From contig CP076053.1 in the NCBI GenBank assembly GCA_018672315.1, positions 1,599,827 through 1,663,826 of the forward strand: a stretch of DNA of 64,000 nucleotides, given 5' to 3'. Made by a program: the position numbers and the translations under genes. Shown here in pieces: positions 3,582 to 64,000 of this stretch (within the stretch, counting starts at the first letter, position 1; the number at the start of each line of letters is the position of its first letter). The notes under the pieces were generated by a model that saw only the letters and a list, made by a program, of their open reading frames with translations, was not told the origin of the DNA and searched no databases. The stretch is from Nocardioidaceae bacterium (GTDB lineage: Bacteria; Actinomycetota; Actinomycetes; Propionibacteriales; Nocardioidaceae).

Positions 3582-3605
3582 CCGCGGTCGCGTACGCGGT
3601 CGCGC

Positions 3606-4215: not shown

Positions 4216-6477
<2,262 letters not shown>

Positions 6478-6489
6478 GGTCCCGACGCG

Positions 6490-6528: not shown

Positions 6529-6575
6529 GCGTGCGCGAGGCTCGTGGCTGGTGCGTCGTACCTCGTGCCGGTTCG

Positions 6576-7286
<711 letters not shown>

Positions 7287-7337
7287 TCAGGTCACGACCC
7301 GGGCGGCGGGCGGGCCACGGCGGCCCGGGTCTCGACC

Positions 7338-7355
7338 AGATTACGGAACGGTCAC
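7338..7355 (-). promoter_or_regulatory. conserved promoter/operator-like motif of the LysM Rpf gene
   Basis: On the minus strand this reads GTGACCGTTCCGTAATCT, about 140 bp before the Rpf start. A related sequence ending GGTTCGTAATCT precedes the second Rpf gene at 8161-8172. The shared TTCGTAATCT-like core suggests common control. MtrA is known to control rpf and cell-wall genes in actinobacteria through GTnACC-like repeats, but assigning this motif to MtrA is inference. Confidence 0.4.
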
Positions 7356-7402
7356 GGGAGCGCCGCACAGCGCGGTGAACCGGTCCATGCCGAGGGGGCC
7401 AC

Positions 7403-8119
7403 CTATCGGCGCTTCTTGCCCTTCTTGCCCTTGGCCTTGTTGCCCTTGGCCTTCTTCGCCGTGGCGGTCGCCTTCCTCGCCTCGGCGCGCGCCTCCTGGG
7501 CCTTCGCCTTCGCCTTCTTCGCGGCGGCACGCGCCTTGCGCGCCTGCGCCTTCGCCTTCTTGGCGGCTGCCTTCGCCTTCTTCGCCTTCGCGGCGGCCTT
7601 CTTGGCGGCGGCCTTGGCCTTCTTCGCCTGCGCTGTCGCCTTCTCGGCCTTCGCCCGCGCCTTCTTCGCCTTCGCCTCGGCCTTCTTGCCGTCGGCCTTC
7701 TTGACGTCGGCCTTCTTGGTGCCGCCGGCCTTCCTGCCGTCCTTCTTAGGCTCCGGCTCGCGCAGCCCGAGCTTGAGCGAGCAGGCCGGCCACGCCTTCC
7801 ACCCCTGCACCTTCAGCACGCGCTCGGCTACCGTGATCTGCTCGGCCTTGGTCGCGCGGTGCGCCTTGCGGGCGTACGCGAGGCCGCCGAAGTCCTTCCA
7901 CGTGGGCTGCCAGAACTGCAGGCCGCCGTAGTAGCCGTTGCCGGTGTTGATCGACCAGTTGCCACCGGACTCGCACGACGCGACGCGGTTCCAGGTCTTG
8001 GCCGGCGCCGCCTCGGCGGGCAACGCGACCAGGGCGGAGAGGGTGGCGAGGACGAGCGTGAGCAGGGCGTTCACGACGAGTCGGGCGTACGGCACACGTC
8101 GTCGGCTCGGTGCGTGCAC
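7403..8119 (-). CDS. Rpf-domain secreted protein with a Lys/Ala-rich tail
   Basis: Encodes 238 aa. A signal peptide (to about residue 38, ALPAEAAPA) is followed by an Rpf domain (about 39-115) with [27 protein letters not shown], very like the neighbouring Rpf. There is no LysM or other wall-binding module. The last ~115 residues are a strongly basic low-complexity tail of repeats such as AKKAKAAAKKA, resembling the tails of HBHA, mycobacterial HupB or histone H1. Those tails bind polyanions, so attachment to teichoic acids, DNA or host glycans is an inference. The GTG start is at 8119. Confidence 0.85.
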   Translation of the reverse strand: MHAPSRRRVPYARLVVNALLTLVLATLSALVALPAEAAPAKTWNRVASCESGGNWSINTGNGYYGGLQFWQPTWKDFGGLAYARKAHRATKAEQITVAERVLKVQGWKAWPACSLKLGLREPEPKKDGRKAGGTKKADVKKADGKKAEAKAKKARAKAEKATAQAKKAKAAAKKAAAKAKKAKAAAKKAKAQARKARAAAKKAKAKAQEARAEARKATATAKKAKGNKAKGKKGKKRR

Positions 8120-49838: not shown

Positions 49839-50129
49839 ATGAGCACACGATTCGTCCTCTTCATCGCCAGGGACAAGGAGCGGTCGCAGCGAGCCGTCGC
49901 GAACCTCGACCGGCTGTGCCGTGCCTCGGGCCTGCCTCCGGAGTCGGTGGAGGTCGTCGACGTCGAGGAGCAGCCGGAGCGGGCGGACGAGGCCGGTGTC
50001 GTGGCCACGCCGACGGTCCTCGCCCACAGCGCGTACGCGAGCCGCCGTGTCATCGGCGACCTGTCTGACCTGGATCGGTTGGCGTCTGCGCTCGACGTGC
50101 AACTGATCGATCCCGATGTGGGTGGCTGA
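49839..50129 (+). CDS. KaiB-fold (thioredoxin-like) small protein
   Basis: Encodes 96 aa. FVLFIARDKERSQRAVANLDRLCR at the start and VATPTVLAHSAYASRRVIGDLSDLDRLASALDV at the end match the KaiB domain, including ATPT and IGDLSD. There is no KaiC or KaiA gene in the window, so a clock role is not supported. KaiB-like proteins in heterotrophs are linked to stress responses or to KaiC-type ATPases elsewhere. ATG at 49839, 64 bp after recD; nothing else is in that gap. Confidence 0.82.
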   Translation: MSTRFVLFIARDKERSQRAVANLDRLCRASGLPPESVEVVDVEEQPERADEAGVVATPTVLAHSAYASRRVIGDLSDLDRLASALDVQLIDPDVGG

Positions 50130-50138
50130 GGGCGACGC

Positions 50139-53100
50139 TCAGGCGAGCAGCTCGCGCACCTCGTCCGCGCCCAGCGACGAGCCGGCCGCACGGTCGCGGG
50201 TCTGCTGCAGCGCCGCGGGGTCCAGCACCGACGCGGCCAGCGCGGCCTTGCGTGCCTGCAGCTCGACGACCTTCTCCTCGATCGTGCCTGCGCTGACCAG
50301 GCGGTAGACCATGACGGGCTTGTCCTGCCCGATGCGGTGCGCCCGGTCGACGGCCTGCGCCTCCACGGCGGGGTTCCACCAGGGGTCGAGCACGAAGACG
50401 TAGTCGGCCTCGGTGAGCGTGAGGCCGGTGCCGCCGGCCTTCAGGGAGATCAGGAAGATCGACGGGCCGCTGTCCCGGAAGGCCTCGACGACGTCACCGC
50501 GTCGTCTGGTGGCGCCGTCGAGGTAGTGGGTGTGCAGTCCGGCGGCGTCCAGGCGCTCACGCACCCGGCGGAGGTAGGTGGTGAACTGGCTGAAGACCAG
50601 CGCCTTGTGTCCTTCGGCGACCACGTCACGCAGGTGGTCGACGAGCACGTCGGTCTTCGCGGCGCCGACGCCCTCGTGCTCCTCGTCGAGCAGCACCGGG
50701 TCGATCGCCAGCTGCCGCAGCCGGGTGAGCGAGCGGAAGATCGCGATGCGGTGGGCGTCCATGCCTTCGTCGACGAGGCCGAGCACGTGCTGGCGCTCGC
50801 GCTGCAGGTGCGTGTCGTAGAGGTGCTGGTGGGCGCGGCCGAGGCGCACGCTGAGCACCTGCTCCTGCTTGGGCGGGAGGTCCGCGGCGACGAGGTCCTT
50901 CGTACGCCGCAGCAGGTAGGGCGCGACCCGCCGCCGGAACCGCTCCAGCACCTCGGCGTCGCTCTCCTTCTCCACGGGGTCGGCGACGGCTTGGCGGAAC
51001 CGGTCGGGCCACGGGAAGAGGCCGGGGGTGACGATCGAGAGGAGCGACCAGAGCTCCATCAGCCGGTTCTCCACCGGGGTGCCGGTTAGCGCGAGACGGA
51101 AGTCGGTCTCGAGGCGGCGTACGGCCTGGTAGGTCTTGCCCTGGTGGTTCTTCACCGCCTGCGCCTCGTCGAGCACGACGCCGCCCCAGGTGCGTGCGGC
51201 GTACGCGTCGGCCTCCAGACGCAGCAGCGTGTAGGAGGTGACGACGACGTCCGCGCCGCCGTGGGCCTCGACGACCTCGGCGATCGTGGAGCCGCGACGG
51301 CTCTGGGTGCCGACGACGACGCGGACGTCGAGGTGCGGGGTGAAGCGGGCTGCCTCGCCCGCCCAGGTGCCGAGCACGCTGGTGGGGGCGACGACGAGGA
51401 AGGGGCCGTCGTCGGGTCGCGTACGCCGCGCATGGGCGATCAACGCGAGGGTCTGCAGCGTCTTGCCCAGCCCCATATCGTCGGCGAGCAGCCCGCCGAG
51501 GCGGTGGTGGTGCAGGAAGGCGAGCCAGCGAAGCCCCTCGTCCTGGTAGCTGCGCAGGGTGGCGTCGACGTCGGGGACGTCCACGGCCGGCAGCTGGTCG
51601 GGCAACGTGAGACCGCGGGCGGCTTCGACGAAGCGCGCGGCCTGGCCCTCGACGATGCCGAGGTCGGCGAGCTCCTCGAAGAGGCCGAGGTCGGGGCGGC
51701 GTACGGCGATGCCGTCGCGGGGCTGCTCGACCAGGTCGCCGGCGGCCTCGACGAGCTCGGCCAGACGTCGCAGGGCGGGCACGTCGAGGTCGACGACGAG
51801 TCCCTTGCCGAGCACGACCTTCGTACGCCCGGTGGTCAGCGCCTCCAGCACGGTGGCGAGGCCGATGCTGTAGCCCTCGACGGTGACCACGACCTCGAGG
51901 CCGAGCCAGTCGGGACGGTAGTCCGGGTCCTGCGGGTCGCCCTTGCCGCGGCGGCCGCCGACGAACTCGTCGTCGGGGTCGTCCGGGTCGTCGCCGTGCT
52001 CGCCGCGCGGCGACGTGAACCGCACCTCGGGCGGCTGCTCGGCGGCGCGGTAGTCGGGGCGGTCGCCCAGCTCCTCGATCTCGAGCACGCCGGCCGCCGC
52101 CCGGGTCTCGAGCTCGGGCAGCACGTCCTCGACGAGGCCGACGGCCTCGTAGCCGCGGATCGTCTGGCGCGCTCGCGGCCCCTGGTGGCGGTCGCGCTCG
52201 AGGTAGAGGCGGTGCACGGTGTCCTCGCCGGGGTCCAGTGCGGCGAGGATGCTCGCCTCCAGGCGGGGGCGGCGTACGCCGCGGGTGGTGCCGCGCTGCT
52301 CGTCGAGCTCGTAGACGAGCTCGCCCCCGGCCTCGGAGCCGTCGTCGGTCGTCACGGGTCCGCCGGGGTCTCGGTACCGCCACGTCCAGCGCACGTCGAC
52401 CTCGTCGGCGGCCTTCCAGTCCAGGGTCAGCACGAGCACCGGGCGCGCCGGTGCGGGCACCGGTGCGGACGCGTCGCCCGAGACCACCGAGACCTGACGT
52501 TGGAGACGGGGGAGGTAGTCGTGCACCAGCACGTCGCGGTCGGCGTCGGGCACCACGAGCGGTGAGTCGTCGGCCAGCAGACGTGCCAGCTGCGGACCGA
52601 CGGGCTTGACCAGCGGTGCAAGCAGGATGCCGTCGGCAGCCCACGCCGCGAGGCCGTGGCCCGGGTCGCCGATGATCTCCAGGGAGCCGCTGGGCACCCA
52701 CTCACCGGCGACGGCGACACCGAGGCGTACGCGCGAGCCGCCGCCCCGTCCCGACTCCCCGGACCCCTCAGCGGTCAGGTCGACCTCGAAGGAGACCGGG
52801 TCCGCGAGCTGTACGTCGCGCACCCCGTCACCGGCGACGAGCTCGACGCCGACCTCACGCGCCCGGGCCAGCGCCGGCCACAGTCCGGAGCCGAACGCCG
52901 CGAGACGAAGGTGCGTCTCCGAGGTCATGTAGTAGGTGTTCAGCCCTGCGCGGTAGAGCGCCTGCAGGGTCTCGAGCGCGTCGCAGTGCGTGGGCTCAGC
53001 GCCCTGCGCGCGCAGCCGTCGCAGGTCGGCCCACGCGGCCCCCTGCTTGACCCACCGGCCACGGCGGCTCTGCTGCAGCGGTCGGATGCGGAGGGGGCCG

Positions 53101-53612
53101 CGGGCGGGACCGGCGGGGTCGCTGGCCCAGCGGTACGCCTGCCGGGCGGTGGCGATCGGCCCGCGGCTCACCTCCAGGGCCAGGGGCTCGGGTGGCAGAG
53201 GCTCACCGTGCCAGCCGTCGCCGTCGACGTCGTCGGCCTCGAGCTCCTCGAGCAGGGCCTCGAGGCGCCGCTCCCACATGGGGACGCCGACGGGGCCGGC
53301 CCGTCGTGCCTCCTCCTCCCGGGTGATGGCGAGCAGGAGCATCGCGGCGACGTGCTTGCAGCCTGTGCTCACCGGGCAGCTGCAGGAGCTGTGCTGCAGT
53401 GGGCCCCGCGGGCCGTCCTGGACGCCGATGCTGCCGCGGTAGAGCTCACCGTGCGAGCCGTCGGACTCACCCATGAGCCAGACGGCGTCGTCCTCGCGGT
53501 CGAGCTCGAGCAGTCGGGTCTGGCCGCGCTGGGCGTACGACCGCGCCCGCGTCATCGTGGGCACCCCGAACATGCGCCTCAGGTCGGCGTCGTCGAGCAG
53601 GGTCAGGTCCAT
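50139..53612 (-). CDS. SWI2/SNF2-family DNA helicase/translocase with SWIM zinc finger
   Basis: Encodes 1157 aa. A SWIM zinc finger lies near the N-terminus (CSCPVSTGCKH, residues 77-87). The SNF2 core starts near 690: GLLADDMGLGKTLQTLALIAHA (Walker A), VVLDEAQAVKN (DEAQ box) and LTGTPVENRLMELWSLLSIV. Then the helicase C part has KALVFSQFTTYLRRVRERL, FLISLKAGGTGLTLTEADYVFVLDPWWNPAVEAQAVDRAHRIGQ. Such proteins remodel nucleic-acid-protein complexes in repair; the exact role is unknown. ATG at 53612. Confidence 0.93.
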   Translation of the reverse strand: MDLTLLDDADLRRMFGVPTMTRARSYAQRGQTRLLELDREDDAVWLMGESDGSHGELYRGSIGVQDGPRGPLQHSSCSCPVSTGCKHVAAMLLLAITREEEARRAGPVGVPMWERRLEALLEELEADDVDGDGWHGEPLPPEPLALEVSRGPIATARQAYRWASDPAGPARGPLRIRPLQQSRRGRWVKQGAAWADLRRLRAQGAEPTHCDALETLQALYRAGLNTYYMTSETHLRLAAFGSGLWPALARAREVGVELVAGDGVRDVQLADPVSFEVDLTAEGSGESGRGGGSRVRLGVAVAGEWVPSGSLEIIGDPGHGLAAWAADGILLAPLVKPVGPQLARLLADDSPLVVPDADRDVLVHDYLPRLQRQVSVVSGDASAPVPAPARPVLVLTLDWKAADEVDVRWTWRYRDPGGPVTTDDGSEAGGELVYELDEQRGTTRGVRRPRLEASILAALDPGEDTVHRLYLERDRHQGPRARQTIRGYEAVGLVEDVLPELETRAAAGVLEIEELGDRPDYRAAEQPPEVRFTSPRGEHGDDPDDPDDEFVGGRRGKGDPQDPDYRPDWLGLEVVVTVEGYSIGLATVLEALTTGRTKVVLGKGLVVDLDVPALRRLAELVEAAGDLVEQPRDGIAVRRPDLGLFEELADLGIVEGQAARFVEAARGLTLPDQLPAVDVPDVDATLRSYQDEGLRWLAFLHHHRLGGLLADDMGLGKTLQTLALIAHARRTRPDDGPFLVVAPTSVLGTWAGEAARFTPHLDVRVVVGTQSRRGSTIAEVVEAHGGADVVVTSYTLLRLEADAYAARTWGGVVLDEAQAVKNHQGKTYQAVRRLETDFRLALTGTPVENRLMELWSLLSIVTPGLFPWPDRFRQAVADPVEKESDAEVLERFRRRVAPYLLRRTKDLVAADLPPKQEQVLSVRLGRAHQHLYDTHLQRERQHVLGLVDEGMDAHRIAIFRSLTRLRQLAIDPVLLDEEHEGVGAAKTDVLVDHLRDVVAEGHKALVFSQFTTYLRRVRERLDAAGLHTHYLDGATRRRGDVVEAFRDSGPSIFLISLKAGGTGLTLTEADYVFVLDPWWNPAVEAQAVDRAHRIGQDKPVMVYRLVSAGTIEEKVVELQARKAALAASVLDPAALQQTRDRAAGSSLGADEVRELLA

Positions 53613-53628
53613 CGCCGCTGAGCGTACG

Positions 53629-53665
53629 AGCCGGCACCGACAGGCGTGACCGGTCGGTGCCGGCT
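53629..53665 (-). terminator. hairpin after the HNH endonuclease gene
   Basis: AGCCGGCACCGAC (53629-53641) and GTCGGTGCCGGCT (53653-53665) form a perfect 13-bp stem, 40 bp after the HNH-gene stop and before the helicase gene on the same strand. It likely ends the former's transcript. Confidence 0.7.
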
Positions 53666-53705
53666 GGGGTGTGCGCCGGTGTCGCGCCGGTCGGTCTCGC
53701 GGGCG

Positions 53706-55337
53706 TCAGACAGGCGGCTTGAGTGGGCCGGGTGGCTGGCGTGGGCCGAGGTCGTCGACGTCTCCGTCGGGTCCGCGGCGGTAGGTCCGGCCGGTGGGGG
53801 AGCGCCACTCGTACGTGGGGGACGTGGGTGGTCCGGTGCGCCGGTAGGTCCAGCCGCTGTGGGTCTTGAGGCGGTGGTGGAAGCGGCAGAGTGCGGCGAG
53901 GTTGTCGGTGCACGTCTGCGGCGGCTGGGACCCGCCCGACCTGTGGGGTTCGTCGGGCGGGTCGTGCCAGGGGTCGATGTGGTCGAGGTCGGCTGCGCGC
54001 GCGGGGCGGTGGCAGTGCGGGAACACACACGTGCGGTCGCGCAGGATCACCTGTTCGCGGAGCCGGGGTCCGGGGGCGTACGCAGTGGAGGCGTGTTCTT
54101 CGTTGAGGTCGAGGACGGGCCGGATGGTCAGGCGGGTCTGTCCGGCGGTGGGGCCGGTGTCGGCCAGGGCGGCGTGGGCCCAGGCCCGGACGGTGGCTTC
54201 GTCGACCAGGCGTACGGGGCCGGACTCGATGGTCGCCAACCCGGCCGCGTGCATGAGCCCATCGGTGCTGCGGGTGAGGGTGGCGGCGGAGAGGTGGACG
54301 TGGAGCACGAGCTCGCGGGTCGCGCGGGTGCGGTGCTCGCGGTCGATGATCCGCTCGGCACCGTCGGTCGGCCTCTCCGCGGTATCGGCGTCGCTGGTGT
54401 CGTAGGGGAGGACGAGTTCCCCGCGGGCGAGGACCCCCAGGGCCTGGGCGCGGAGGCACCCCTCGCTCGTGTGAGCGGGCGCGGTGGCAGCGAGGCGGGT
54501 GGCGATGAGGTCCAGGGAGGTATCGAGGTCGGCTGCGTCGAGGGCATCGATGCGCCCGTCGACCCATGCCAGCCCGGCGAGGTCTTCGGCGGTGGGTGAC
54601 CCGGACCGGTTCTGCACCGGCAGCGCGATCCGCACGTGCTGCTGGTTCCGCAGCTTTGCGGCCGCCTCGGACAGTGCGCGGGTCTGTTCGCGCAGACGCT
54701 CGTGCACCGTGGTCGCGTCGGTCAGCGCCAGCGCCTCGAGACCGCCGGCCTCACGGACAAGCTCCGCCTCGGCCTGCTGCACGCGCAGCAGGCCGGTGAG
54801 GGTGCGGTCCAGCGCCGGCACCCCGAGCCGGTGCGCCTTGGGTGCGAGCCACCGGTCCGCGGCACCAGCCCGGTCAAGGTCGAGGACGGTGGTGCGGGTG
54901 GCGATGCGTCGGGCCCGCCACAACGGCAGATCCAATGCCTCCACCCGTGCCCACGTGGCGGGGAGGCGGTGGCGCAGCTCGAGGAGGTCCGAGGCCAGGA
55001 TCCGGGCGGAGTCGGTCGTCGTTCCGAGCGCGGCACCGAGGTCGGCCACACAGAACTCGGCGATCATCGGGGTCCCGGGCCCGCCGAGGAGCAGGGCACG
55101 TTCGCCGTGGAGCGCGCCACCGGTGTCCGGGCCGTGACCGGCCGCATCACGGATCGACTCCGCCGGGTGAGCGTCGAGCCAGGCCAGCACCGCCCGGGCG
55201 CGGGCCACCTCTCCAGCACGAGCTGCCCGGTCACCGGCGCGCACGGCCGCGAGCAGATCGGCGGGCGTGCCCGATCCGCCTGATCCGCCTGGGCCTCCGT
55301 GGCGCTCGCGGCTGTCGTGGGTGCTGGTCACGAGCAT
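53706..55337 (-). CDS. DUF222/HNH endonuclease (13E12 repeat family), SOS-box preceded
   Basis: Encodes 543 aa. The N-terminal two-thirds is the helical DUF222 (13E12 repeat) region. The C-terminal HNH nuclease domain (about 430-490) has RDRTCVFPHCHRPARAADLDHIDPWHD and NLAALCRFHHRLKTHSGW, giving the two Cys pairs and the catalytic His. This is a common actinobacterial family, often carried in many copies and of unclear role. The ATG at 55337 was chosen because a LexA box lies 29 bp upstream. Confidence 0.9.
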   Translation of the reverse strand: MLVTSTHDSRERHGGPGGSGGSGTPADLLAAVRAGDRAARAGEVARARAVLAWLDAHPAESIRDAAGHGPDTGGALHGERALLLGGPGTPMIAEFCVADLGAALGTTTDSARILASDLLELRHRLPATWARVEALDLPLWRARRIATRTTVLDLDRAGAADRWLAPKAHRLGVPALDRTLTGLLRVQQAEAELVREAGGLEALALTDATTVHERLREQTRALSEAAAKLRNQQHVRIALPVQNRSGSPTAEDLAGLAWVDGRIDALDAADLDTSLDLIATRLAATAPAHTSEGCLRAQALGVLARGELVLPYDTSDADTAERPTDGAERIIDREHRTRATRELVLHVHLSAATLTRSTDGLMHAAGLATIESGPVRLVDEATVRAWAHAALADTGPTAGQTRLTIRPVLDLNEEHASTAYAPGPRLREQVILRDRTCVFPHCHRPARAADLDHIDPWHDPPDEPHRSGGSQPPQTCTDNLAALCRFHHRLKTHSGWTYRRTGPPTSPTYEWRSPTGRTYRRGPDGDVDDLGPRQPPGPLKPPV

Positions 55338-55365
55338 GAATCTAGGTGCGACCACCGACAGTTCC

Positions 55366-55381
55366 TCGAACGCGTGTTCGA
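55366..55381. promoter_or_regulatory. lexA box: LexA (SOS) box
   Basis: TCGAACGCGTGTTCGA is a perfect palindrome and matches the actinobacterial LexA consensus TCGAAC-N4-GTTCGA. It lies 29 bp upstream of the HNH endonuclease start. The box is directly read; regulation by DNA damage is inferred, but 13E12-family genes in mycobacteria also carry SOS boxes. Confidence 0.85.
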
Positions 55382-55438
55382 ATAATGAGACGGGTGTGTG
55401 GATCGGTGTCAGAAGTCGTCGGGTCTCGCGGCTCGGCT

Positions 55439-55492
55439 GGCGCCTCGCACCTCGACCACCGGGTTGCCGGCGCCTCGCGCCTCGACCGCCGG
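55439..55492. repeat. two tandem copies of a ~24-bp repeat with 30-bp period
   Basis: GGCGCCTCGCACCTCGACCA with CCGG (55439-55462) recurs as GGCGCCTCGCGCCTCGACCG with CCGG (55469-55492). It lies in the 222-bp intergenic stretch between the HNH gene and the PLDc_N gene. No gene is seen here. The function is unknown. Confidence 0.6.
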
Positions 55493-55560
55493 TCCGCGGA
55501 CATCGAGGCGGGAGAACCACCCCCGCCGTACGCTGGAGAGATCCCCCCGAGGAGGTCCCG

Positions 55561-55980
55561 TTGGTCCGTCTGGCCATCATCGCCGGCCCGGTCGCCCTGG
55601 CGTTCACCATCTGGTGCGCCTTCGACGCCCGCGCCTCCAGGGTGGGCGTACGCCGCCTCCCGCGATGGGCTTGGATCCTGGTGATCCTGCTGCTGCCGCC
55701 GCTCGGCGGCATCCTGTGGTTGACGTTGGGTCGACCCCCGAAGGTCGTGGGCTATCAGCCACCCAGCGAGTCCACACCCTGGTCGCAGCGCCCGACGCGC
55801 GAGTCGGGCGAGGACTTCCAACGTCGCGTGCGCGAGCGCGCCGAGGTGCAGCGACTGCAGGCCGAGGAGCGGCAGCGCAAGTCCCGGGAGGCGGCGGCCG
55901 CGGAGAAGCCCGACGAGATCACCGAGGACGATCCGCGAAGCGACGCAGGCGGTCCCGGGGGAGGGGCCGGCGGTCAGTAG
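55561..55980 (+). CDS. PLDc_N-domain membrane protein
   Basis: Encodes 139 aa with two transmembrane helices (LAIIAGPVALAFTIWCAFDA and WAWILVILLLPPLGGILWLTLG) that form the PLDc_N module found in actinobacterial short membrane proteins. A basic/acidic coiled-coil tail follows (about 80-120, RRVRERAEVQRLQAEERQRK). The TTG at 55561 was chosen because GAGGAGG precedes it. It lies 9 bp upstream of menB and may be co-transcribed. Confidence 0.82.
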   Translation: MVRLAIIAGPVALAFTIWCAFDARASRVGVRRLPRWAWILVILLLPPLGGILWLTLGRPPKVVGYQPPSESTPWSQRPTRESGEDFQRRVRERAEVQRLQAEERQRKSREAAAAEKPDEITEDDPRSDAGGPGGGAGGQ

Positions 55981-55989
55981 CCTCGGCGC

Positions 55990-56946
55990 GTGAGCCCCGA
56001 GAACCCCGAGAGCGCCGGCAGCGCCGAGAGCCAGAACCCGTTCGACCCGGACGCCTGGGACCCGGTGCCGGGGTTCGAGGACCTGACGGACCTGACCTAT
56101 CACCGCGCCAAGGCCCACGGCACGGTCCGCATCGCCTTCGATCGGCCCGAGGTGCTCAACGCGTTCCGGCCGCACACGGTCGACGAGCTGCTCCGTACGC
56201 TCGAGCACGCGCGCACCACCTCCGACGTCGGCTGCGTCATCCTCACCGGCAACGGACCGAGCCCCAGGGACGGCAAGTGGGCCTTCTGCACCGGGGGCGA
56301 CCAGCGCATCCGGGGGCGTACGGGCTACCAGTACGCCGACGGCACGGGCGGTGAGAGGACCGACGAGCGCACCCCGGAGGACAAGGCCCGGCTGGGCCGG
56401 TTGCACATCCTCGAGTGCCAGCGCCTGATCCGCTTCATGCCGAAGGTCGTCATCTGCGTCGTGCCGGGCTGGGCCGCGGGCGGCGGACACTCCCTGCACG
56501 TGGTCTGCGACCTCACGCTCGCCAGCCGCGAGCACGCCCGTTTCAAGCAGACCGACGCCGACGTCGGCTCCTTCGACGGCGGGTACGGGTCGGCGTACCT
56601 CGCCCGCCAGGTCGGCCAGAAGTTCGCCCGCGAGATCTTCTTCCTCGGCGACACCTACAGCGCCGAGGACATGCACCGGATGGGCGCGGTCAACAAGGTC
56701 GTCGACCACGCCGACCTCGAGGCCGAGGCGCTGGAGTGGGGCCGCAAGATCAACGGCAAGAGCCCCACGGCGCAGCGGATGCTGAAGTACTCCTTCAACC
56801 TCCTCGACGACGGGTTGGTCGGCCAGCAGCTGTTCGCCGGCGAGACCACGCGGCTGGCGTACATGACCGACGAGGCCACCGAGGGCCGCGACCAGTTCCT
56901 GGAGAAGCGCGAGCCGGACTGGTCGCCCTACCCCTGGTACTACTGA
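55990..56946 (+). CDS. menB: 1,4-dihydroxy-2-naphthoyl-CoA synthase
   Basis: A crotonase-fold enzyme of menaquinone synthesis that cyclises o-succinylbenzoyl-CoA. The 318 aa protein has FCTGGDQRIRGRTGYQYADG (the MenB Tyr loop), VPGWAAGGGHSLHVVCDLTLAS (oxyanion hole) and the MenB-specific end FLEKREPDWSPYPWYY. FKQTDADVGSFDGGYGSAYLARQVG carries the catalytic region. GTG start. The genomic island begins just after its stop, and the gene is complete. Confidence 0.95.
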   Translation: MSPENPESAGSAESQNPFDPDAWDPVPGFEDLTDLTYHRAKAHGTVRIAFDRPEVLNAFRPHTVDELLRTLEHARTTSDVGCVILTGNGPSPRDGKWAFCTGGDQRIRGRTGYQYADGTGGERTDERTPEDKARLGRLHILECQRLIRFMPKVVICVVPGWAAGGGHSLHVVCDLTLASREHARFKQTDADVGSFDGGYGSAYLARQVGQKFAREIFFLGDTYSAEDMHRMGAVNKVVDHADLEAEALEWGRKINGKSPTAQRMLKYSFNLLDDGLVGQQLFAGETTRLAYMTDEATEGRDQFLEKREPDWSPYPWYY

Positions 56947-57050
56947 ATCGGCCTGTTTCCGCAGTTCAGCGACCTGCAGGGAGCCGGGAGTCCGCACAGA
57001 GTCCGCAACGCTTCCACTGACGCGTCTTGGTTGGACGCCGTTGACTGGTC

Positions 57051-58187
57051 TCAGTCCCGAGGTGGAAGGTGGACTTCGTCGACGATGTCCGACGCCTGGT
57101 CGAGGGCCTCGCGAAGGAGCCCAGAGGCCGCGGCCCGGGTGCGGTCTTCGGCCGTCGGCCAGAGGTGGCTGTAGGTGTTCAGCGTGGTGGTGGCGGAGGC
57201 ATGCCCCAGTGCTCGCTGGACGGTGACGACATCGCATCCTGCAGCGATCAGGCCAGAGGCGTAGAAGTGGCGGAGGTCGTGCAGACGCACGTGCGGAAGC
57301 TGCGCGGCGGTGCGGGTAGCCCGCCATCGCCACGTGATGGCGTTGTCGTTCAGCGGCTCGCCGCCGACGGTGAAGAGCCATGTGTCGACGGCCGTGCCGC
57401 TCACGTGCCGCGAGACGTGCTCTTGCAGGATGACGACGAGGTCGTCAGGGAGGTAGACAAGCCGTTCGGAGTTGTACTTCGGGGCTCGTATCGCGTACGT
57501 CGCGCCATCGCGCTGAAGCTGTCGGGCCACCGTGAGACAACGCCCCGAGAAGTCCACATCGCCGACCTGGACCGCGGCCGTCTCACCCTTGCGAAGGCCC
57601 GCGAATGCGCACAGTGCGACGTACGCACGGAAGCCTCGGCGGCTTGAAATGAGTGAGCCATCGGCGAGCGCGAGCAGCTGGCCGACCTCCTTCGTCGTGG
57701 GTACGCGCATCGCAGCAGCGGCCTTACGTCGGCGCGGGAGAGCAACGCCAGCGGTCGGGTCGATGCTGATGAGACGTTCTGCGATGGCGCCGCGGAAGAT
57801 CGATCGCACGATGACGAAGCGAGTTTTGATGGTTGTGGCTGCCCATCGCTGCGAACCCGTCTTGATCCATGACTCGACGTCTGACCGTCGCACCGCGCTA
57901 AGTGACTTATGGAGGAAGGGCACGGAGTTGACCGCCAGATCGGCGTTCGCCCGTGTCGACGGCACCCAGAGCTGACGCTCCGCCCACTGGTCGTAGAACT
58001 GCCTGAAGGTGACCTTGCCCGCCGATGGATCGACGTAGGTGCCGGCGATCAGCGTCGAGCTGATGTCGTCCAACCAGCGTTGCGCGTCAATCTTCCTGGC
58101 GAAGTGACGGGCGCGCTCCTTGCCGGCCTCGTCGCGGTAGCGGGCGCGCCATCTGCCGTCCGGACGCTTCGCGACGCTGCCGGCCAC
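57051..58187 (-). CDS. int: tyrosine recombinase (phage/ICE-type integrase)
   Basis: Encodes 378 aa. An AP2-like arm-type DNA-binding N-terminus (about 1-60), a SAM-like core-binding domain (about 60-150) and the catalytic domain follow. The catalytic residues can be read: Arg199 in GLRKGE, His303 and Arg306 in HDLRHFY, His329 in GHAS and Tyr339 in NTYSHL. Complete and without frameshift, so it could be active. It lies 104 bp from menB at the left end of the island. Nothing but a possible attachment site can lie between. Confidence 0.93.
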   Translation of the reverse strand: MAGSVAKRPDGRWRARYRDEAGKERARHFARKIDAQRWLDDISSTLIAGTYVDPSAGKVTFRQFYDQWAERQLWVPSTRANADLAVNSVPFLHKSLSAVRRSDVESWIKTGSQRWAATTIKTRFVIVRSIFRGAIAERLISIDPTAGVALPRRRKAAAAMRVPTTKEVGQLLALADGSLISSRRGFRAYVALCAFAGLRKGETAAVQVGDVDFSGRCLTVARQLQRDGATYAIRAPKYNSERLVYLPDDLVVILQEHVSRHVSGTAVDTWLFTVGGEPLNDNAITWRWRATRTAAQLPHVRLHDLRHFYASGLIAAGCDVVTVQRALGHASATTTLNTYSHLWPTAEDRTRAAASGLLREALDQASDIVDEVHLPPRD

Positions 58188-58347
58188 CTCGCGGCCCCTC
58201 TCGGCTGGACATCCTGGCTTGCATCGGATCGTGCTGGTTCCACCGCCGTCGATCCAAGGATCGATGGCGTCTCATCTCATGAGTCAGGGCGAGACCCCTT
58301 GGTGGGTGCAGAGTGTCGGCGGAACATCGCTCCGCGGAGTCAGCGCT

Positions 58348-58587
58348 TCAGGTGGAAGAGCTGCGAGAGCTGCAGCCTCGAGACTGCGCCTCGAGCCATT
58401 CGATGACCTCGGCGCGCCAGTAGCGGACACATCGCCCGACCTTGAAGCTGTGAGGTCCCTCGCCGATGTGCCGCCAATAGCGAAGGGTGGCGGCGGGGAC
58501 GCGGACGAGTTCGGAGACCTCGCCTAGCGTGAGTAGCGCGTCCCCAGTGCGCGGTCCCTCGACACGGGCGGTGGATTTGCTACTCAT
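58348..58587 (-). CDS. AlpA/MerR-like helix-turn-helix protein, probable excisionase
   Basis: Encodes 79 aa with a helix-turn-helix of the excisionase type: LLTLGEVSELVRVPAATLRYWRHIGEGPHSFKVGRCVRYWRAEVIEWLE. Such proteins steer integrase direction or activate island genes. The ATG at 58587 was chosen; the frame continues to an earlier ATG but without a conserved segment. It lies 160 bp upstream of the integrase on the same strand. Confidence 0.85.
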   Translation of the reverse strand: MSSKSTARVEGPRTGDALLTLGEVSELVRVPAATLRYWRHIGEGPHSFKVGRCVRYWRAEVIEWLEAQSRGCSSRSSST

Positions 58588-58779
58588 GATGAACTCCCTC
58601 GATCTGGGGTGGCGGGCGTGGAACTCATCGTGCGACGTGCGTCCACTTCCAAGAAGGTGACGACCGATGCTCATGACCGCGACAACTCTCGTGCGAGTGC
58701 CTCAGCGTCTCCGGATGCGGGAGCGAAAACGCGAAAGACGATCTGCTCTCTCTCACCTGCGGCGGATGACGCATCCAGA

Positions 58780-58813
58780 CGGCCGCTCTCCCATTCGGAT
58801 GGGAGAGCGGCCG
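58780..58813 (-). terminator. perfect terminator closing the Ubl operon
   Basis: A 15-bp perfect stem (CGGCCGCTCTCCCAT at 58780-58794 with its complement at 58799-58813) closes on TCGG. It follows the stop of the 37-residue gene by 8 bp on the minus strand and so marks that gene as the end of the operon. Confidence 0.88.
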
Positions 58814-58821
58814 CTGCGGAT

Positions 58822-58935
58822 TCAGCCCTTACCGAGGGTGCTACCAGCTTTCGACTTTGCGCCCTTGGAGGATCCGTTGGACGCGAGGGTCCTGCCCGCT
58901 TTTGACAGCGCGGCCTTGCTCGGCTTGCCAGCCAT
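58822..58935 (-). CDS. 37-residue Lys/Ser/Gly-rich peptide, last gene of the Ubl operon
   Basis: A short ORF with ATG at 58935 and GAGGAGG 7 bp upstream, a stronger ribosome-binding site than any other in the operon. The product has seven Lys and one Arg, no acidic residue, and Ser/Ala/Gly around the Lys; it starts MAGKPSKAALSKAGRTLASN and ends GKG. It is 49 bp after the E1 stop and is followed by a perfect terminator. No function is recognised. A conjugation target, regulator or toxin/effector peptide are all possible; none is shown. Confidence 0.7.
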   Translation of the reverse strand: MAGKPSKAALSKAGRTLASNGSSKGAKSKAGSTLGKG

Positions 58936-58984
58936 GTCGTCACCTCCTCTCTTCAGCAATGTGGGGCACCGGGGCATCGGCGCG

Positions 58985-60460
58985 TCACCGACCCCTTCGG
59001 TGTGTCCGGACGTCTTGGTGGATGTCCCGCTCGAGCTGGCAGCGGCAGGTTGCCTTCGAATTTCTCGACAGGGTCATGTCGCCGTGCGGACCGAAAAGCG
59101 CGTCGTACTGCACGTTGTTCGCCTCCGTGGTGACGCCCCCGCGAATTAGGGAGCCGACAACGAGTGCGGCAGCCTGCTGGGCGACGAAGGCCGCGGACGG
59201 ATTGAATCCTTGGTTCTCGCCGGTGAGACCAAAGGCCTTCCCAAGGCCGCAGATGTCTTTGCCGACGTGGCTCTGAAGGATGGCGCGGTCTTTGGGCGTC
59301 AGGTTGTCAAGGGAGGTGAGCTCGTCGGCGGTCAGTTTGTCGGTGCCGCGGGCGAGGAGGTCTCGTGGAAGTCCGGTGCGAAGAGTGAGCAGGTCGATGA
59401 CCGACGGGCCTTGAGCGGGACGCTGTGGGTAGTAGCAGCGCAGGCACGGGCCCGTCCAGGTTGCTTCGGAAAGGCTGAGCATCGTCCCGGTGTCGCCACC
59501 TGTGCTCCCGTCGAGGGTTTGGCTGGCATGGATGGCCGCGATCTCGTGTCGGGCATCCACGCTATCCACGGCGCCGAGGACGGTGGTCGGCATGTGCTTG
59601 TCGCCGGCATCGATTGCGTCGATGTAATCTCGCGCGGTCCCAATGATGGGATCGACGGTGACGTCGCAAAGTTGGTCTCGGATGAGGTGGACCTTGGGTG
59701 TCCTCGCTGCGGCTGTGGCGCGGTCGCCAAGGCTGTATGTGGTGACATTCGGGTGGTCGTAGGTCTCGGGGTCAACGACGGCGAGGAGACCTGTGGCGTT
59801 CAGCTCGCGGAAGATAAGCGCGATGGCGGTGCCGATGGCGCCGCCGCCGATGAGCGCAATGTCCCGCAGCGGTGCCAGGGACCGGATGGTGTCGTCGGGT
59901 TCGCCGAGGGTGACGGGGCAGAAGTCAATGGACCTGATTGGTCCCTGGCGGTCGAGGAGGACGGCAACGACGTCTTTGAAGACCTCGGCGGTGAGCATCG
60001 CGCCGGTGAGGACGCCTCCTAGACCGGTTCCGGTCTGCTGGAGTGAACCGACCGCGGCGCCTGCGGGCCGCAGCCGGGTGCCATGACCGTCCGCGACACC
60101 ACTGACATGTGCCGAGGTCGAGCTCGTACCAACGTGAACGTGAAACGTGACGTGCTCGGGCCGGATCACCGAAAGGGACCGGTCGGCGTCGATGCCGGCG
60201 GTGAGCTGCTCAAGGTCGGTGACGAGGTTCGGGTCGAGTTCGCCATCTCCCCCGGAAGGGTCGAGGTGAAGCCGGACGGGGAGGCGACGCAGGTTGCCCA
60301 CCAGGACCCGGAGGGTCGCTGCGACGGCGGGGGCTTCAGCGTCGGCGGTGACCAAGACGATGCTGTTCTCAAGCCGCGTCTGCAGGTCAGCCTCGTTCGC
60401 ACCTGAGCTGCCCGCCGCGAGGCGCAGCGGACGGCTGTAGTTGGTGTGGTCAGTGCTCAC
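58985..60460 (-). CDS. ThiF/E1-like ubiquitin-activating enzyme homolog
   Basis: Encodes 491 aa. The N-terminal ~195 residues are an extra domain without a recognised motif. The adenylation domain (about 200-460) has DIALIGGGAIGTAIALIFRELN (glycine loop 205-210) and VVDPETYDHPNVT (Asp230). Zinc cysteines occur as CLRC (339, 342) and CRC (472, 474). Cys404 in GKDICGLGK is a candidate thioester Cys. It would adenylate the Ubl C-terminus and pass it to the E2-like protein. The GTG start at 60460 overlaps the JAB stop by 11 bp. Confidence 0.87.
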   Translation of the reverse strand: MSTDHTNYSRPLRLAAGSSGANEADLQTRLENSIVLVTADAEAPAVAATLRVLVGNLRRLPVRLHLDPSGGDGELDPNLVTDLEQLTAGIDADRSLSVIRPEHVTFHVHVGTSSTSAHVSGVADGHGTRLRPAGAAVGSLQQTGTGLGGVLTGAMLTAEVFKDVVAVLLDRQGPIRSIDFCPVTLGEPDDTIRSLAPLRDIALIGGGAIGTAIALIFRELNATGLLAVVDPETYDHPNVTTYSLGDRATAAARTPKVHLIRDQLCDVTVDPIIGTARDYIDAIDAGDKHMPTTVLGAVDSVDARHEIAAIHASQTLDGSTGGDTGTMLSLSEATWTGPCLRCYYPQRPAQGPSVIDLLTLRTGLPRDLLARGTDKLTADELTSLDNLTPKDRAILQSHVGKDICGLGKAFGLTGENQGFNPSAAFVAQQAAALVVGSLIRGGVTTEANNVQYDALFGPHGDMTLSRNSKATCRCQLERDIHQDVRTHRRGR

Positions 60461-60935
60461 GGACACCGTCCGCGTCGAAGGTAATGACCGTAGTGGTCCG
60501 GGCTTTGACGGAAGCGGGCGCGATTGGCACCCAATCGCTGTCCTGGAAGGCCCACCAGCCCCAGGTCGCCGGATCGTGGGACGGAGTCGCGAAGTTCGGG
60601 ATGACAGAGGCGATGAAGCCCGGCATCCGGATGTTCCCGGTCTTGTCGGTGTTGGAGAGGAACGCCTCGTGCATATGCGAGTGAATCTGTGCGCGGACCT
60701 GGACGTTGTTTTGCTCGGCATACGCGAATAGCGGGTTCAGCGCAGCGGAGGAGAGAACTAGGAGGCGAGCGTGGCGATCGATGTCGGCGGTCCCCGCGAG
60801 CGCGAGGACGGTGACCGACGGTTCACCGGGCGGCGTGAGGAAGAGCGCACCCGTTTCCAGGCCGAGGGCGCCGTACCGGGCGACGTCACCGACGAGAACA
60901 TCGAGGGCGTCGGCTCCCAGATCAATTTTGCTCAT
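60450..60935 (-). CDS. JAMM/JAB-domain metallopeptidase
   Basis: Encodes 161 aa of the Mov34/MPN/PAD-1 type. The active-site set is present: Glu27 (LETGALFL), His85 and His87 (QIHSHMHEAF), Ser94 and Asp97 (SNTD), a H-x-H-x6-S-x2-D arrangement one residue shorter than in AMSH but seen in bacterial relatives. It would trim the Ubl precursor or remove conjugates. The ATG overlaps the E2 stop by 4 bp. Confidence 0.88.
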   Translation of the reverse strand: MSKIDLGADALDVLVGDVARYGALGLETGALFLTPPGEPSVTVLALAGTADIDRHARLLVLSSAALNPLFAYAEQNNVQVRAQIHSHMHEAFLSNTDKTGNIRMPGFIASVIPNFATPSHDPATWGWWAFQDSDWVPIAPASVKARTTTVITFDADGVREH

Positions 60936-61396
60936 GCTGCCCGTGCTCCTTGAACTCGGTTGATGTCGTCGGTCACGTTCTCAATGACGTACAGGAACGG
61001 GTTGCCACCCGAACGCCATGACTGAGGGCCGATCGTCCACTCGCCGTGAAGATCTTGGCCCTCGGCGGTGAACGGCTTGCAGACGTCGTTCGGCGCCCGG
61101 TAGCCGGTGGCCGCCGGCCACGCGCTGGTGACGTTCGTAGGGCCACCGACGGAGATGGCGAACAGCAGCGATGGCGGCCGGTCAGGGTAGACGGACCACA
61201 GCGTTCGGACGATGAACGGCTTGGTGTCCGGCTCGGTCGGCTGGATCACGGCCCAGTACAGCCCGGGTGGGTCGACTGAGGCGTCAGGGGCATCGGGGTC
61301 GGCAACGCGGTGGACGAGACGACCACCGGCAGCCTCTAGCGTGGCGCGCACCACGGCGGCGTCGCGCTCGAGGCGCAACTGGCTCTCGAAGTCCAC
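60932..61396 (-). CDS. E2-like (ubiquitin-conjugating-fold) protein
   Basis: Encodes 154 aa. The run FIVRTLWSVYPDRPPSLLFA (about 61-80) resembles the YPxxPP of E2 proteins. GYRAPNDVCKPFTAEGQDLHGEW (about 99-120) follows, with Cys106 in the place of the catalytic Cys and a Trp after it. It is not canonical, but the order and spacing fit a bacterial E2. GTG start, 2 bp after the Ubl gene stop, and it overlaps the JAB gene by ATGA. Confidence 0.78.
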   Translation of the reverse strand: MDFESQLRLERDAAVVRATLEAAGGRLVHRVADPDAPDASVDPPGLYWAVIQPTEPDTKPFIVRTLWSVYPDRPPSLLFAISVGGPTNVTSAWPAATGYRAPNDVCKPFTAEGQDLHGEWTIGPQSWRSGGNPFLYVIENVTDDINRVQGARAA

Positions 61397-61398
61397 CC

Positions 61399-61695
61399 TC
61401 AGCTGCCCGAAATGGTTTCGGTCCGCAGGGACAACTTGATCGAACGCGAGTGGCCCGGGCCGTCCTCTGCGATCGCGCCGATGGTCGTCCCGGGGTCCTG
61501 CTCGTCACCGTTGGCGACGAAAAAGTACCGGGTCGTGCCGTCGGACTCGATGTTGAGGAAGGCAAGCACGGCCGCGAGCACTTGGCCGATCGACGCGTCC
61601 GACGTGAACTTCTGGTTGAACTGCTTCGTCGCGGCCGCAAAGGTCGCGTGGACGACGACGTCTCTGTCGTGGGACGTCACAGACTGGGTGTTCAT
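61399..61695 (-). CDS. ubiquitin-like (Ubl) protein, first gene of the operon
   Basis: Encodes 98 aa with one predicted beta-grasp domain: DVVVHATFAAATKQFNQKF, SIGQVLAAVLAFLNI, RYFFVANG and SIKLSLRT are the strand-helix-strand elements. It ends SGS, with a penultimate Gly97 and no di-glycine. Removing the last Ser by the JAB peptidase would expose a terminal Gly fit for E1 adenylation; this is inference. GGAGA precedes the ATG at 61695. It is the first gene of a four- to five-gene operon. Confidence 0.78.
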   Translation of the reverse strand: MNTQSVTSHDRDVVVHATFAAATKQFNQKFTSDASIGQVLAAVLAFLNIESDGTTRYFFVANGDEQDPGTTIGAIAEDGPGHSRSIKLSLRTETISGS

Positions 61696-61743
61696 TGGGG
61701 TCTCCTTCAAGGACTTGCGGCACCGGAGATTCTGATATCCACG

Positions 61744-61765
61744 GTTTCACTGTACAAAATGAAAC
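61744..61765. promoter_or_regulatory. palindrome in the divergent Ubl / ATPase promoter region
   Basis: GTTTCA and TGAAAC are perfect inverted repeats around the 10-bp AT-rich spacer CTGTACAAAA, between the divergent Ubl operon and ATPase-module starts. It is the AT-richest short stretch of the window and looks like an operator or overlapping promoters. No experiment supports it here. Confidence 0.5.
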
Positions 61766-61841
61766 GGTAGGCCGTCGTCCTGCTCTTGTCAACACAGCGT
61801 CGGTCCTCGTGTCTGCGGGTCCTACGCGGGACAATCTGCGG

Positions 61842-62723
61842 GTGGAACTGAACCTGGCCGGAGCGATGCCGCTGACTGACGGGGCGTTCCTTATGGGCGA
61901 GGATGCGGACCAGCTTGTCCTTGACGCGACGGCCCTCACGTTCGCGTGCCCGCTCGACCTAGCCGGGATAGTGGGGTTGGCGCATTGGGCGGCTTCGAGC
62001 GCGATCCCGGTGACACTGATGATGCCGTTGGATCAAGGAATGGCGTCCTACCTACAACGGATGGACGTGCTGCGCCACCTGCCGTCTCGGCCCAAGATCG
62101 TCGGCCGCGTCCCACCCGACACCAGGTCCGATCGATCCGGGTCCTTACTCGAGGTCACCGCGCTCAATCGCGGCAACGTCGATGACCTCGCCGAACGTCT
62201 CGGACCGCTCGTCATGGGGTTCTACGGCGAGGACAGCGAGGCTGGCGCTGCCGTCCTGCGAGCTTGCGGTGAGCTCGTTGGGAACGCCACCGAGCACGGC
62301 CACAGCGAACGCGGCGCTTTCATGGCCGCTCAACTTCATAGGGGCGCAACCACAGGCGGCCCCAGACTCGAGTTCGCGGTCTGCGACACCGGCATGGGCG
62401 TCATGGAGCATCTACGGCTGAACCCCAAGTACGCGCACTACACCCTCGACAAGCACGCCATCGCGAAGGCTACTGAAGCGGGAGTCACAGGTGTTCCCGA
62501 CGATGAGCGGGGCAACGGCTTGTACGACGTCATCAAGGCGAGGCAGGTCGGAGAAGTGTCTCTACAGATCCGGTCCGGCAGGGGCGAAGTCCGCATCCAA
62601 GGCTCCCCGACCAGCCAACAGCAGACGCTGCACGACCGTCCAGATCAGACTGCGGGCACATGGGCGTGGCTTACCCATCGGCTGAGCGCGGGAAGCAACA
62701 CTGTGGTTCAATCGAGAAAATGA
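61842..62723 (+). CDS. STAS-like plus GHKL-type ATPase (anti-sigma-like) protein
   Basis: Encodes 293 aa. The N-terminal part (about 1-85, VELNLAGAMPLTDGAFLMG, LVLDATALTFACPLDLAGIVGLAHWA) resembles a STAS-like sheet-helix unit. The GHKL ATPase domain (about 130-270) has ACGELVGNATEHGHSERGAF (N box) and CDTGMGVMEHL (G1 box), then a G-rich ERGNGLYDVIK. It could act as a serine kinase of the anti-sigma type. GTG at 61842 was chosen by homology; GTG 61809 is possible. It is followed 13 bp later by a DUF4325 gene. Confidence 0.72.
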   Translation: MELNLAGAMPLTDGAFLMGEDADQLVLDATALTFACPLDLAGIVGLAHWAASSAIPVTLMMPLDQGMASYLQRMDVLRHLPSRPKIVGRVPPDTRSDRSGSLLEVTALNRGNVDDLAERLGPLVMGFYGEDSEAGAAVLRACGELVGNATEHGHSERGAFMAAQLHRGATTGGPRLEFAVCDTGMGVMEHLRLNPKYAHYTLDKHAIAKATEAGVTGVPDDERGNGLYDVIKARQVGEVSLQIRSGRGEVRIQGSPTSQQQTLHDRPDQTAGTWAWLTHRLSAGSNTVVQSRK

Positions 62724-62736
62724 AGCCGGAGAAGCC

Positions 62737-63345
62737 ATGACAGATGCAACCATCTTTTCCGTCGTCCAGCTCGGCAAGTACCCCGCCACGCGCGCGCGTG
62801 GTCAAGAAGGCCGAGCCAGACTCGACGACCTACTCGAGGGCCGTGCTGGACTCGACCTGACCATCGACTTCAGCGGAGTCGAAGTCATGAACATCAGCTT
62901 TGCCGATGAGTTTCTCGGCAAGTTTCTGACCTCGCACGACTTCTCGGCCAGTAGTGCGACCGTCAGAGTCGCCGGCCTCAATGCAGACAACCGCTACTCA
63001 GTCCTCGTCTGTGTCGAACGCCGCAAGACGGCCGTCGCCGTCCTTGAGGTCGACGGCTCAGTGTCGCTCCTCGGTGACCCAATCCTTGGGATGACGTTCG
63101 AAGTCGCCCGGGACCTGATCGAGTTCAAAGCAAGCGACGTTGGCGCCAAGCTCAACCTGACACCGCAGAACGCGAACAACCGACTCAAGCGCCTGGTCGA
63201 TGTCGGCGCACTGCGCAAGAGCCAGATTCTGGGCTCGGCGCGCGGCGGTAAGGAGTTCGCCTATTCCGTTGCGACCCCACCAGAGGGAGGGAGCACTCTC
63301 TCTCCCGCCCAACGAGCGTTGGCTGGCGGCAGCACAAGACCGTGA
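62737..63345 (+). CDS. STAS-like (DUF4325) and winged-helix protein
   Basis: Encodes 202 aa. Residues about 1-100 match STAS-like DUF4325 proteins (LTIDFSGVEVMNISFADEFLGKFL). Residues about 120-190 form a winged helix (DVGAKLNLTPQNANNRLKRLVDVGALRKSQ). STAS-like DUF4325 proteins commonly accompany GHKL ATPases. It is placed to act as the anti-anti-sigma-like partner and DNA binder for the upstream ATPase. The target is unknown. Confidence 0.75.
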   Translation: MTDATIFSVVQLGKYPATRARGQEGRARLDDLLEGRAGLDLTIDFSGVEVMNISFADEFLGKFLTSHDFSASSATVRVAGLNADNRYSVLVCVERRKTAVAVLEVDGSVSLLGDPILGMTFEVARDLIEFKASDVGAKLNLTPQNANNRLKRLVDVGALRKSQILGSARGGKEFAYSVATPPEGGSTLSPAQRALAGGSTRP

Positions 63346-63385
63346 CCGGTCGCGTCACTCTGCGCGGAAGGCCGCGGGCTGTCGG

Positions 63386-63997
63386 CTAGTTGCGGACAGG
63401 CTGATTCACGAGCCACGGCGAAGGGTCGATGGGGTCTTCGTAAATGCTGCCGCCGTCGGGGTGGACCTCGAAGTGAAGGTGGCAGCCGGTGGAGTTGCCT
63501 AGGTCGCCGACTTCGCCTATCTGTTGTCCGGCGGCGACGGCCTGGCCGTCGTGCACGCGGACGTCGCTCATGTGGGCGTACCAGGTGGTGAGCTGGCCGG
63601 GTGCGGTGGCGACTTTCACGAGCCATGGCCCCGACCAGGACTGGGTGGTGTCGATCTCGATGACGCCAGCGTGAGCGGCGAGGACGGGGGTGCCGCAAGC
63701 GGCGGAGAGGTCGGTGCCGGTGTGGGTGTTGGCCCAGCGTGCGCTGGTGCCGCCGAAGTTGTGCTGGTCGACGTACGCGGTGCCAGCGGGCAGCGGGAAA
63801 GCGCGAGGTCCAGTGATGGCGGCGACGGTAGTGATGGCGGGTTCGCAAGCCGCTGCTGACGCGAAGGATGCGTTCGACATGCCGGGGGTGCCGCGCCGCG
63901 TCTCGGCGAGGAGCTGTCGTGCGAGGGCTTCGTCGTCGGCGTACGCATCGGGATACGCGGAGACTTGCACGGCCTGGGCGGCGGCGGTGACCGGCAT
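63386..63997 (-). CDS. M23-family peptidase, probably cut by the window edge
   Basis: At least 203 aa of a peptidoglycan endopeptidase. NTHTGTDLSAACGTPVLAAHAGVI (His and Asp zinc ligands) and TGCHLHFEVHP (His-x-His) are the metal and catalytic motifs near residues 90-175. The ATG at 63997 is only 3 bp from the window end and the frame could begin further upstream, so the N-terminus may be missing. M23 peptidases of this kind occur in conjugative elements, where they open the cell wall for transfer, which fits an integrated mobile element. Confidence 0.8.
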   Translation of the reverse strand: MPVTAAAQAVQVSAYPDAYADDEALARQLLAETRRGTPGMSNASFASAAACEPAITTVAAITGPRAFPLPAGTAYVDQHNFGGTSARWANTHTGTDLSAACGTPVLAAHAGVIEIDTTQSWSGPWLVKVATAPGQLTTWYAHMSDVRVHDGQAVAAGQQIGEVGDLGNSTGCHLHFEVHPDGGSIYEDPIDPSPWLVNQPVRN

Positions 63998-64000
63998 CTG

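Follow-up and report, generated by a model that had tools for sequence, protein, structure and literature searches.

Within a window of 64,000 nucleotides, which spans positions 1599827-1663826 of a 3.6-Mb Nocardioidaceae genome, two genes diverge from an operon for ubiquitin-like (Ubl) conjugation. We propose, with a probability of roughly 0.8, that this pair is an actinobacterial CapK/CapS-type switch of the adjacent Bil-like operon, working through two predicted operators, O1 and O2, with CapK releasing CapS. In the published system (Chambers et al., EMBO J 2026, PMC13373217), the GHKL kinase CapK frees the promoters of immune operons from CapS, a repressor of STAS-wHTH build, and the two were found beside Bub, CBASS, Thoeris, and five Bil operons (PMC13373217). 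That paper, the only one in our literature search to cover CapK/CapS in this sense, overturns the statement of an earlier note on this DNA that no description of the pairing was known. Because CapK/CapS is already in print, the window system is to be regarded as a variant, in which the kinase without a helix-turn-helix (HTH) domain, the divergent order, the changed operator, and the missing ssDNA residues are new. The word "divergent" is absent from the main text of PMC13373217, and some such loci may stand in its figures or datasets.

The gene pair and the operon facing it

The capK-like gene (61842..62723, + strand) encodes 293 residues from a GTG start, with a STAS-like N-terminus followed by a GHKL kinase domain, and the capS-like gene (62737..63345, + strand) encodes a predicted repressor of 202 residues with a DUF4325/STAS domain and a winged helix. 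Both genes are present as the earlier note described them, a GHKL ATPase and a DUF4325/winged-helix protein on the + strand, diverging from the Ubl operon. The start of capK is likely GTG 61842, since a 1-nt indel between the window and its closest relative falls upstream of this codon and eight relatives have a Met or Val aligned to it. Given this start, the intergenic gap (61696-61841) is 146 bp long, the length previously assigned to it.

The DUF4325 identity of CapS holds, with a match to PF14213 above the Pfam cut-off (E 2.4e-8) that is the only one to this family genome-wide. The protein's own Pfam HTH matches all lie under their cut-offs. A solved CapS structure (PDB 9z71), the sequence of which is identical to WP_001567865.1, the CapS accession given in PMC13373217, aligns to residues 14-177 of the window protein (E 1.7e-4), with the STAS domain followed by the winged helix. 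For CapK, the assignment as a GHKL ATPase is borne out despite a weak Pfam score (HATPase_c_2, E 0.029, under cut-off), as the N-box Asn, encoded in the window at 62283-62285 (Asn148), is invariant across the CapK alignments; a relative of 49% identity matches HATPase_c at 6.1e-5, likewise slightly under cut-off. The STAS-like N-terminus, also claimed earlier, is supported through alignment and homology to CapK, the window protein having no family match of its own in this part. An AlphaFold2 (AF2) model of the kinase is poor (mean pLDDT 47), and a fold search with it returned nothing at E 0.001 or better, the top match being the anti-sigma kinase SpoIIAB (weak, E 1.8e-3). SpoIIAB/SpoIIAA likewise pairs a GHKL kinase with a Ser on a STAS domain, but acts on sigma factors, whereas the window STAS protein is predicted to bind DNA itself.

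On the other side of the gap, 146 bp from capK, genes for a Ubl protein, an E2-like protein, a JAB peptidase, and an E1-like protein lie on the - strand. The Ubl gene (61399..61695, -; BilA-like) encodes 98 residues. Its product has no Pfam or PADLOC match, and the three orthologues scanned against BilA gave 8.2e-6 (Janibacter), 0.0022 (L027), and no match (L014). The E2-like gene (60932..61396, -) is named from its position, an invariant Cys106 that is also found in the protein of the Haloechinothrix locus described below, and an AF2 model of low confidence (mean pLDDT 43); family searches with this protein gave nothing, including no BilB match. The JAB peptidase gene (60450..60935, -; BilC-like) matches PADLOC BilC at 8.7e-13 and nothing in Pfam, and the product of the E1-like gene (58985..60466, -; start at GTG 60466 or 60460) matches ThiF at 8.5e-8 and, weakly, PADLOC BilD at 7.9e-4. 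With BilC and a weak BilD in the window, BilA in orthologues alone, and BilB unmatched, we name the operon Bil-like; it is probably anti-phage. The window Ubl protein ends in LRTETISGS and shares with its orthologues the tail LRTET-S/I-SG, followed by one or two residues, with a terminal Gly-Gly absent; the JAB peptidase perhaps trims these tails to the Gly.

The module is flanked on one side by genes for a tyrosine recombinase (57051..58187, -; Phage_integrase 5.5e-22) and an excisionase-like HTH protein (58348..58674, -; HTH_17 2.2e-10, and TIGR01764 excise at 0.0017, under cut-off), and on the other by genes for an M23 peptidase, a DnaB N-terminal domain protein, a TraG-type coupling protein, and TrbL. 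The pair and its Ubl operon are thus probable cargo of an integrative conjugative element reaching, in window numbering, from 57051 to ~72.7 kb. Its ends were not found: the longest repeat left of the integrase is 16 bp, occurring twice inside transposase-like open reading frames, and a tRNA gene search of window positions 50000-64000 and of the two extracts around and beyond the module (L002, L003) returned none.

Relatives of the pair and their neighbours

A CapS search of 341 genomes of the same family matched nine, seven strongly and two weakly, and a search of 396 genomes of the phylum matched 36, of which 33 are distant and belong to another actinobacterial family (f58). A scan of genome contigs yielded two loci, the plasmids gave one close match among five, and a draw across the class, searched with a single CapS protein, matched 3 of 394 genomes. 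Nine loci are close to the window pair: the window itself, L014 (= L007), L009 (a Janibacter plasmid), L015 (Haloechinothrix), L027, L028, L029, L032, and L033. As L033 ends with its contig inside capK, eight can be assessed for their neighbours. In all nine, capS is the next gene after capK.

Several candidates were left out of this set. The weak same-family matches in G537 and G689 were set aside; O1 is absent there even at one mismatch. A capS fragment in the class draw (G112), in whose 20 kb neither capK nor the operon was matched, was likewise left out. A match among viral contigs from the capK alignment (L026) is distant and lacks O1, and the capS alignment found no relative in the viral contigs. 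The G961 locus (L035/L070) was excluded as distant (capS 38%); three genes stand in a row there, a CapS-like one between two for kinases, and its short locus has two TTCA-N10-TGAA sites. Four distant plasmid loci (L010-L013) served in kinase alignments only. Two of them, from Rhizobium and Planctomyces plasmids (L012, 2544-4468; L013, 3554-6595), have a CapK-like GHKL gene clustered with a DUF4417 gene, whose product is a possible further partner of CapK-like kinases.

Residue numbers from the published work were checked on the plasmid locus of WP_001567865.1 (L016). All five CapS positions (Ser54, Asn145, Lys151, and the Gly-Gly) are kept in 9/9 close actinobacterial relatives, the predicted phospho-acceptor Ser54 of the window protein being encoded at 62896-62898, and the N-box Asn of CapK (Asn218 in the published protein) is kept in 8/8. 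The HTH domain of CapK is absent from the alignment of the window protein and its relatives, and for this reason we call the window kinase CapK-like.

A Ubl-type operon adjoins the pair in seven of the eight assessable loci, and the arrangement is divergent in seven of the eight. Four loci (the window, L014, L009, and L027) share the same Bil-like operon, and Haloechinothrix carries a second one, in which the Ubl and E2-like genes were assigned by eye and the JAB and E1 genes from matches to Prok-JAB (9.2e-6), BilC (5e-8), and, weakly, ThiF (0.013). A multiubiquitin-ThiF operon lies at two further loci, divergent in L028 and, in L032, on the same strand and preceding capK; the protein scan of L032 left out its E2-like gene. 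At L029 (genome G504, 4401-7692), the genes facing the pair have O1 upstream and belong to no recognised family, and may represent an undescribed immune operon. Contig C22 of G365, a genome of the same family as that of the window, carries the same module. Seen from the side of the operon, an E2 alignment matched four of the 341 same-family genomes, three of them in full and all three with the capKS pair; the fourth (G666) matches over 36 model positions and has none of the remaining module genes nearby. In the class draw, the same alignment matched 3 of 394 genomes, namely two with capKS and G120.

In G120, the pair is replaced. Its Bil-like operon (L073) shares 43% (Ubl), 61% (E2), 50% (JAB), and 50% (E1) with that of the window, no capKS match is found on its 8.3-kb contig, and a gene for an HTH protein (HTH_31 1.5e-9) and one for an IrrE-like peptidase (HELSH; Peptidase_M78 1.8e-9) occupy the capKS slot, divergent from the operon (849-1930, 2047-4664). 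These two genes resemble CapH and CapP, a two-gene controller that stands beside immune operons and responds to DNA damage (PMC13373217). CapH and CapP share with the window pair the position of a two-gene controller by immune operons, but consist of a protease and an HTH repressor rather than a kinase and a STAS repressor; in CapH/CapP, the peptidase is activated by ssDNA and cleaves the HTH repressor.

The more distant branch differs. In f58, a CapS-like gene is present in 34 of 39 genomes (22/22 of the better ones), and in the five genomes inspected a CapK-like gene precedes it and nothing matches the Ubl operon. One such pair, annotated through Pfam (L071), is preceded by a GNAT gene; after it come an unknown gene, a short open reading frame, and, in turn, a gene of sigma-70 type and one for Thy1. 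The f58 pair (L067-L069, L071) has the look of a core form of the switch outside defence, and the presence of such core genes without a Ubl operon means that the wider CapK/CapS superfamily is not specific to defence. The outcome that the earlier note named as refuting, a pair standing mostly away from Ubl operons, is not what the close relatives show, with such operons at seven of eight assessable loci, but it is what the inspected genomes of this distant branch show.

Predicted operators at both promoters

The palindrome reported earlier in the gap lies exactly at 61744..61765 and reads GTTTCA-N10-TGAAAC; we designate it O1, the predicted CapS operator of the divergent promoter. Its occurrence is beyond chance, both by shuffles and by genome scan: TTTCA-N10-TGAAA has one match in the window versus none in 100 shuffles, and a single place in the 3.6-Mb genome, where the reversed-pattern control has none. 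A second site of the same geometry, O2, was missed in the earlier note. It lies before capS at 62707..62724, reads TTCA-N10-TGAA, overlaps the capK stop codon, and is likewise a predicted CapS operator.

Both sites recur in the close relatives. A comparison of the gap between the window and L007 (= L014) reveals a conserved island at the palindrome, and on the Janibacter plasmid the half-sites and their spacing are kept while the spacer letters differ. When the nine close loci (187,876 bases) were scanned for TTTCA-Nk-TGAAA with k from 4 to 18, eight matches were obtained, every one with k = 10 and one in each assessable locus (O1, 8/8). The shorter TTCA-N10-TGAA has 17 matches in the same bases, eight at O1 and nine at O2 on the capK-capS junction (O2 in 9/9 loci), and none elsewhere; with other spacers, this pattern gives 0 to 7 matches. 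Across whole genomes, O1 occurs once in six of seven, the seventh (G634) having its locus cut by a contig end, and the reversed control gives 0 in 7/7. The shorter O2 pattern occurs at 2-8 places per genome, O1 and O2 included (control 0-3), and the case for O2 is therefore one of position and conservation rather than rarity. We considered whether O2 reflects mere conservation of a ribosome-binding site and dropped this idea, as the ribosome-binding site does not include the upstream half-site, and the half-sites are constant whereas the spacer between them varies. In 9/9 loci, the outermost left base of O2 differs from the T of O1, a difference that may make O2 a weaker site suited to autoregulation.

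O1 lies at the head of the operon in L032, the locus in which capK comes after the operon on the same strand. A longer open reading frame would cross O1 in both L032 and L029, and a later start was taken there by judgement, in L032 a GTG after AAGGAGG. In the divergent gap of the window, a scan for sigma-70-type promoters gave no match, and O1 is overlapped by a single weak match of terminator type (mean of the shuffles, 0.2).

The published CapS sites are TTAA-N10-TTAA ("wide") before the operon and TTAA-N1-TTAA (narrow) before capS (PMC13373217). The window loci share the N10 spacing, but not the TTAA half-site or the narrow form, both of their sites being wide and built from TTTCA/TTCA. We read them as a variant of the CapS site and base the family name on the features of the proteins.

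The proposed switch and other readings

The window pair matches CapK/CapS in several respects: a GHKL kinase gene followed by a STAS-wHTH gene beside a Ubl-type operon, the kept Ser54, Asn145, Lys151, Gly-Gly, and kinase Asn, and half-sites 10 bp apart. It differs in its HTH-less kinase, the prevailing divergent arrangement, its operators, and the loss of three kinase residues considered below. In partner switching, a GHKL kinase acts on a Ser of a STAS domain, and CapK phosphorylates Ser54 of CapS, upon which the dimer dissociates and leaves the DNA (PMC13373217). By extension from this Enterobacter work, a CapS dimer held by its STAS domain would bind O1 and repress capK and the Ubl operon together, and would bind O2 to repress its own gene. 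Activated CapK would then phosphorylate Ser54 through its GHKL domain, and the phosphorylated dimer would fall apart and open the promoters. The homology to CapK/CapS and the operators conserved at both promoters lend good support to the earlier suggestion that the kinase/STAS pair responds to a signal by switching the operon next to it. Against this reading stand the genes of no recognised family at L029, the loss of the three kinase residues, the lack of a sigma-70-type promoter match and the terminator-like match at O1, the further occurrences of the shorter O2 pattern, and the distant f58 pairs without a Ubl operon. As a first guess, CapK would respond to DNA damage or to infection by phage, even though it lacks the residues known to contact ssDNA.

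These missing residues raise the question of whether the same switch reads something else, namely another phage- or stress-linked ligand bound in a rebuilt STAS-like/GHKL groove; this would be a special case of the switch rather than an alternative to it. In Enterobacter CapK, W68 is required for activation by ssDNA, with K237 and K239 placed along the predicted groove (PMC13373217). In 8/8 close CapK relatives, the position of W68 is Pro, that of K237 is Arg, Thr, or Ser, and that of K239 is Ala, Thr, or Gln. A Trp at position 49 of the window kinase is kept in 7/8 and absent from seven other aligned kinases, and the HTH domain is gone as well. Against this, removal of the N-terminal HTH had no effect in Enterobacter CapK (PMC13373217), a CapK from Sphingobium has the Trp and lacks both Lys, which suggests that ssDNA contacts drift, and the CapH/CapP-like pair, of a DNA-damage-responsive kind, occupies the same slot of a related operon. 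On balance, we consider a non-ssDNA input possible but doubtful.

Two further readings would do away with control of the Ubl operon by a DNA-bound repressor. ImmR/ImmA-type switches control mobile elements of this sort, and the module sits between the integrase/excisionase-like pair and the conjugation genes, a position that would suit control of transfer or excision. Apart from O1 and O2, however, the window and the 40 kb around and beyond the module (L002, L003) contain no O1- or O2-type site, and the pair recurs with both sites on a plasmid and on other chromosomes, where the neighbouring genes differ, which makes control of the element very improbable. We give hardly any credence to a post-translational switch, in which the STAS protein keeps an operon protein inactive until the kinase frees it, as in VapKSC. 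The window pair does share with VapKSC an HTH-less CapK-like kinase with a STAS partner, and VapK was found via HTH-less CapK homologues (PMC13373217). In VapS, however, the STAS domain is followed by no more than a short C-terminal region (PMC13373217), whereas window CapS has a winged helix in which the DNA-contact residues are kept, the operators are conserved, and the nine window proteins scanned include no PIN nuclease.

The proposed CapK/CapS-type switch of the Bil-like operon extends a just-published family of immune regulators into the actinobacteria. Tentatively, and at somewhat less than even odds, the close loci may form a CapK/CapS lineage distinct to actinobacteria, which has an operator code of its own (two wide palindromes with half-sites of the TTTCA type) and a sensor that does not use the known residues to read ssDNA, and which is swapped as a unit with CapH/CapP-like pairs and serving as the input module of Ubl-conjugation operons borne by mobile elements. 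As the binding positions of the repressor are predicted to the base, the switch is directly testable, and the missing ssDNA residues make the question of the signal approachable by comparing two forms of one kinase. The CapH/CapP-like pair in the same slot suggests that ubiquitin-like defence operons have exchangeable input modules.
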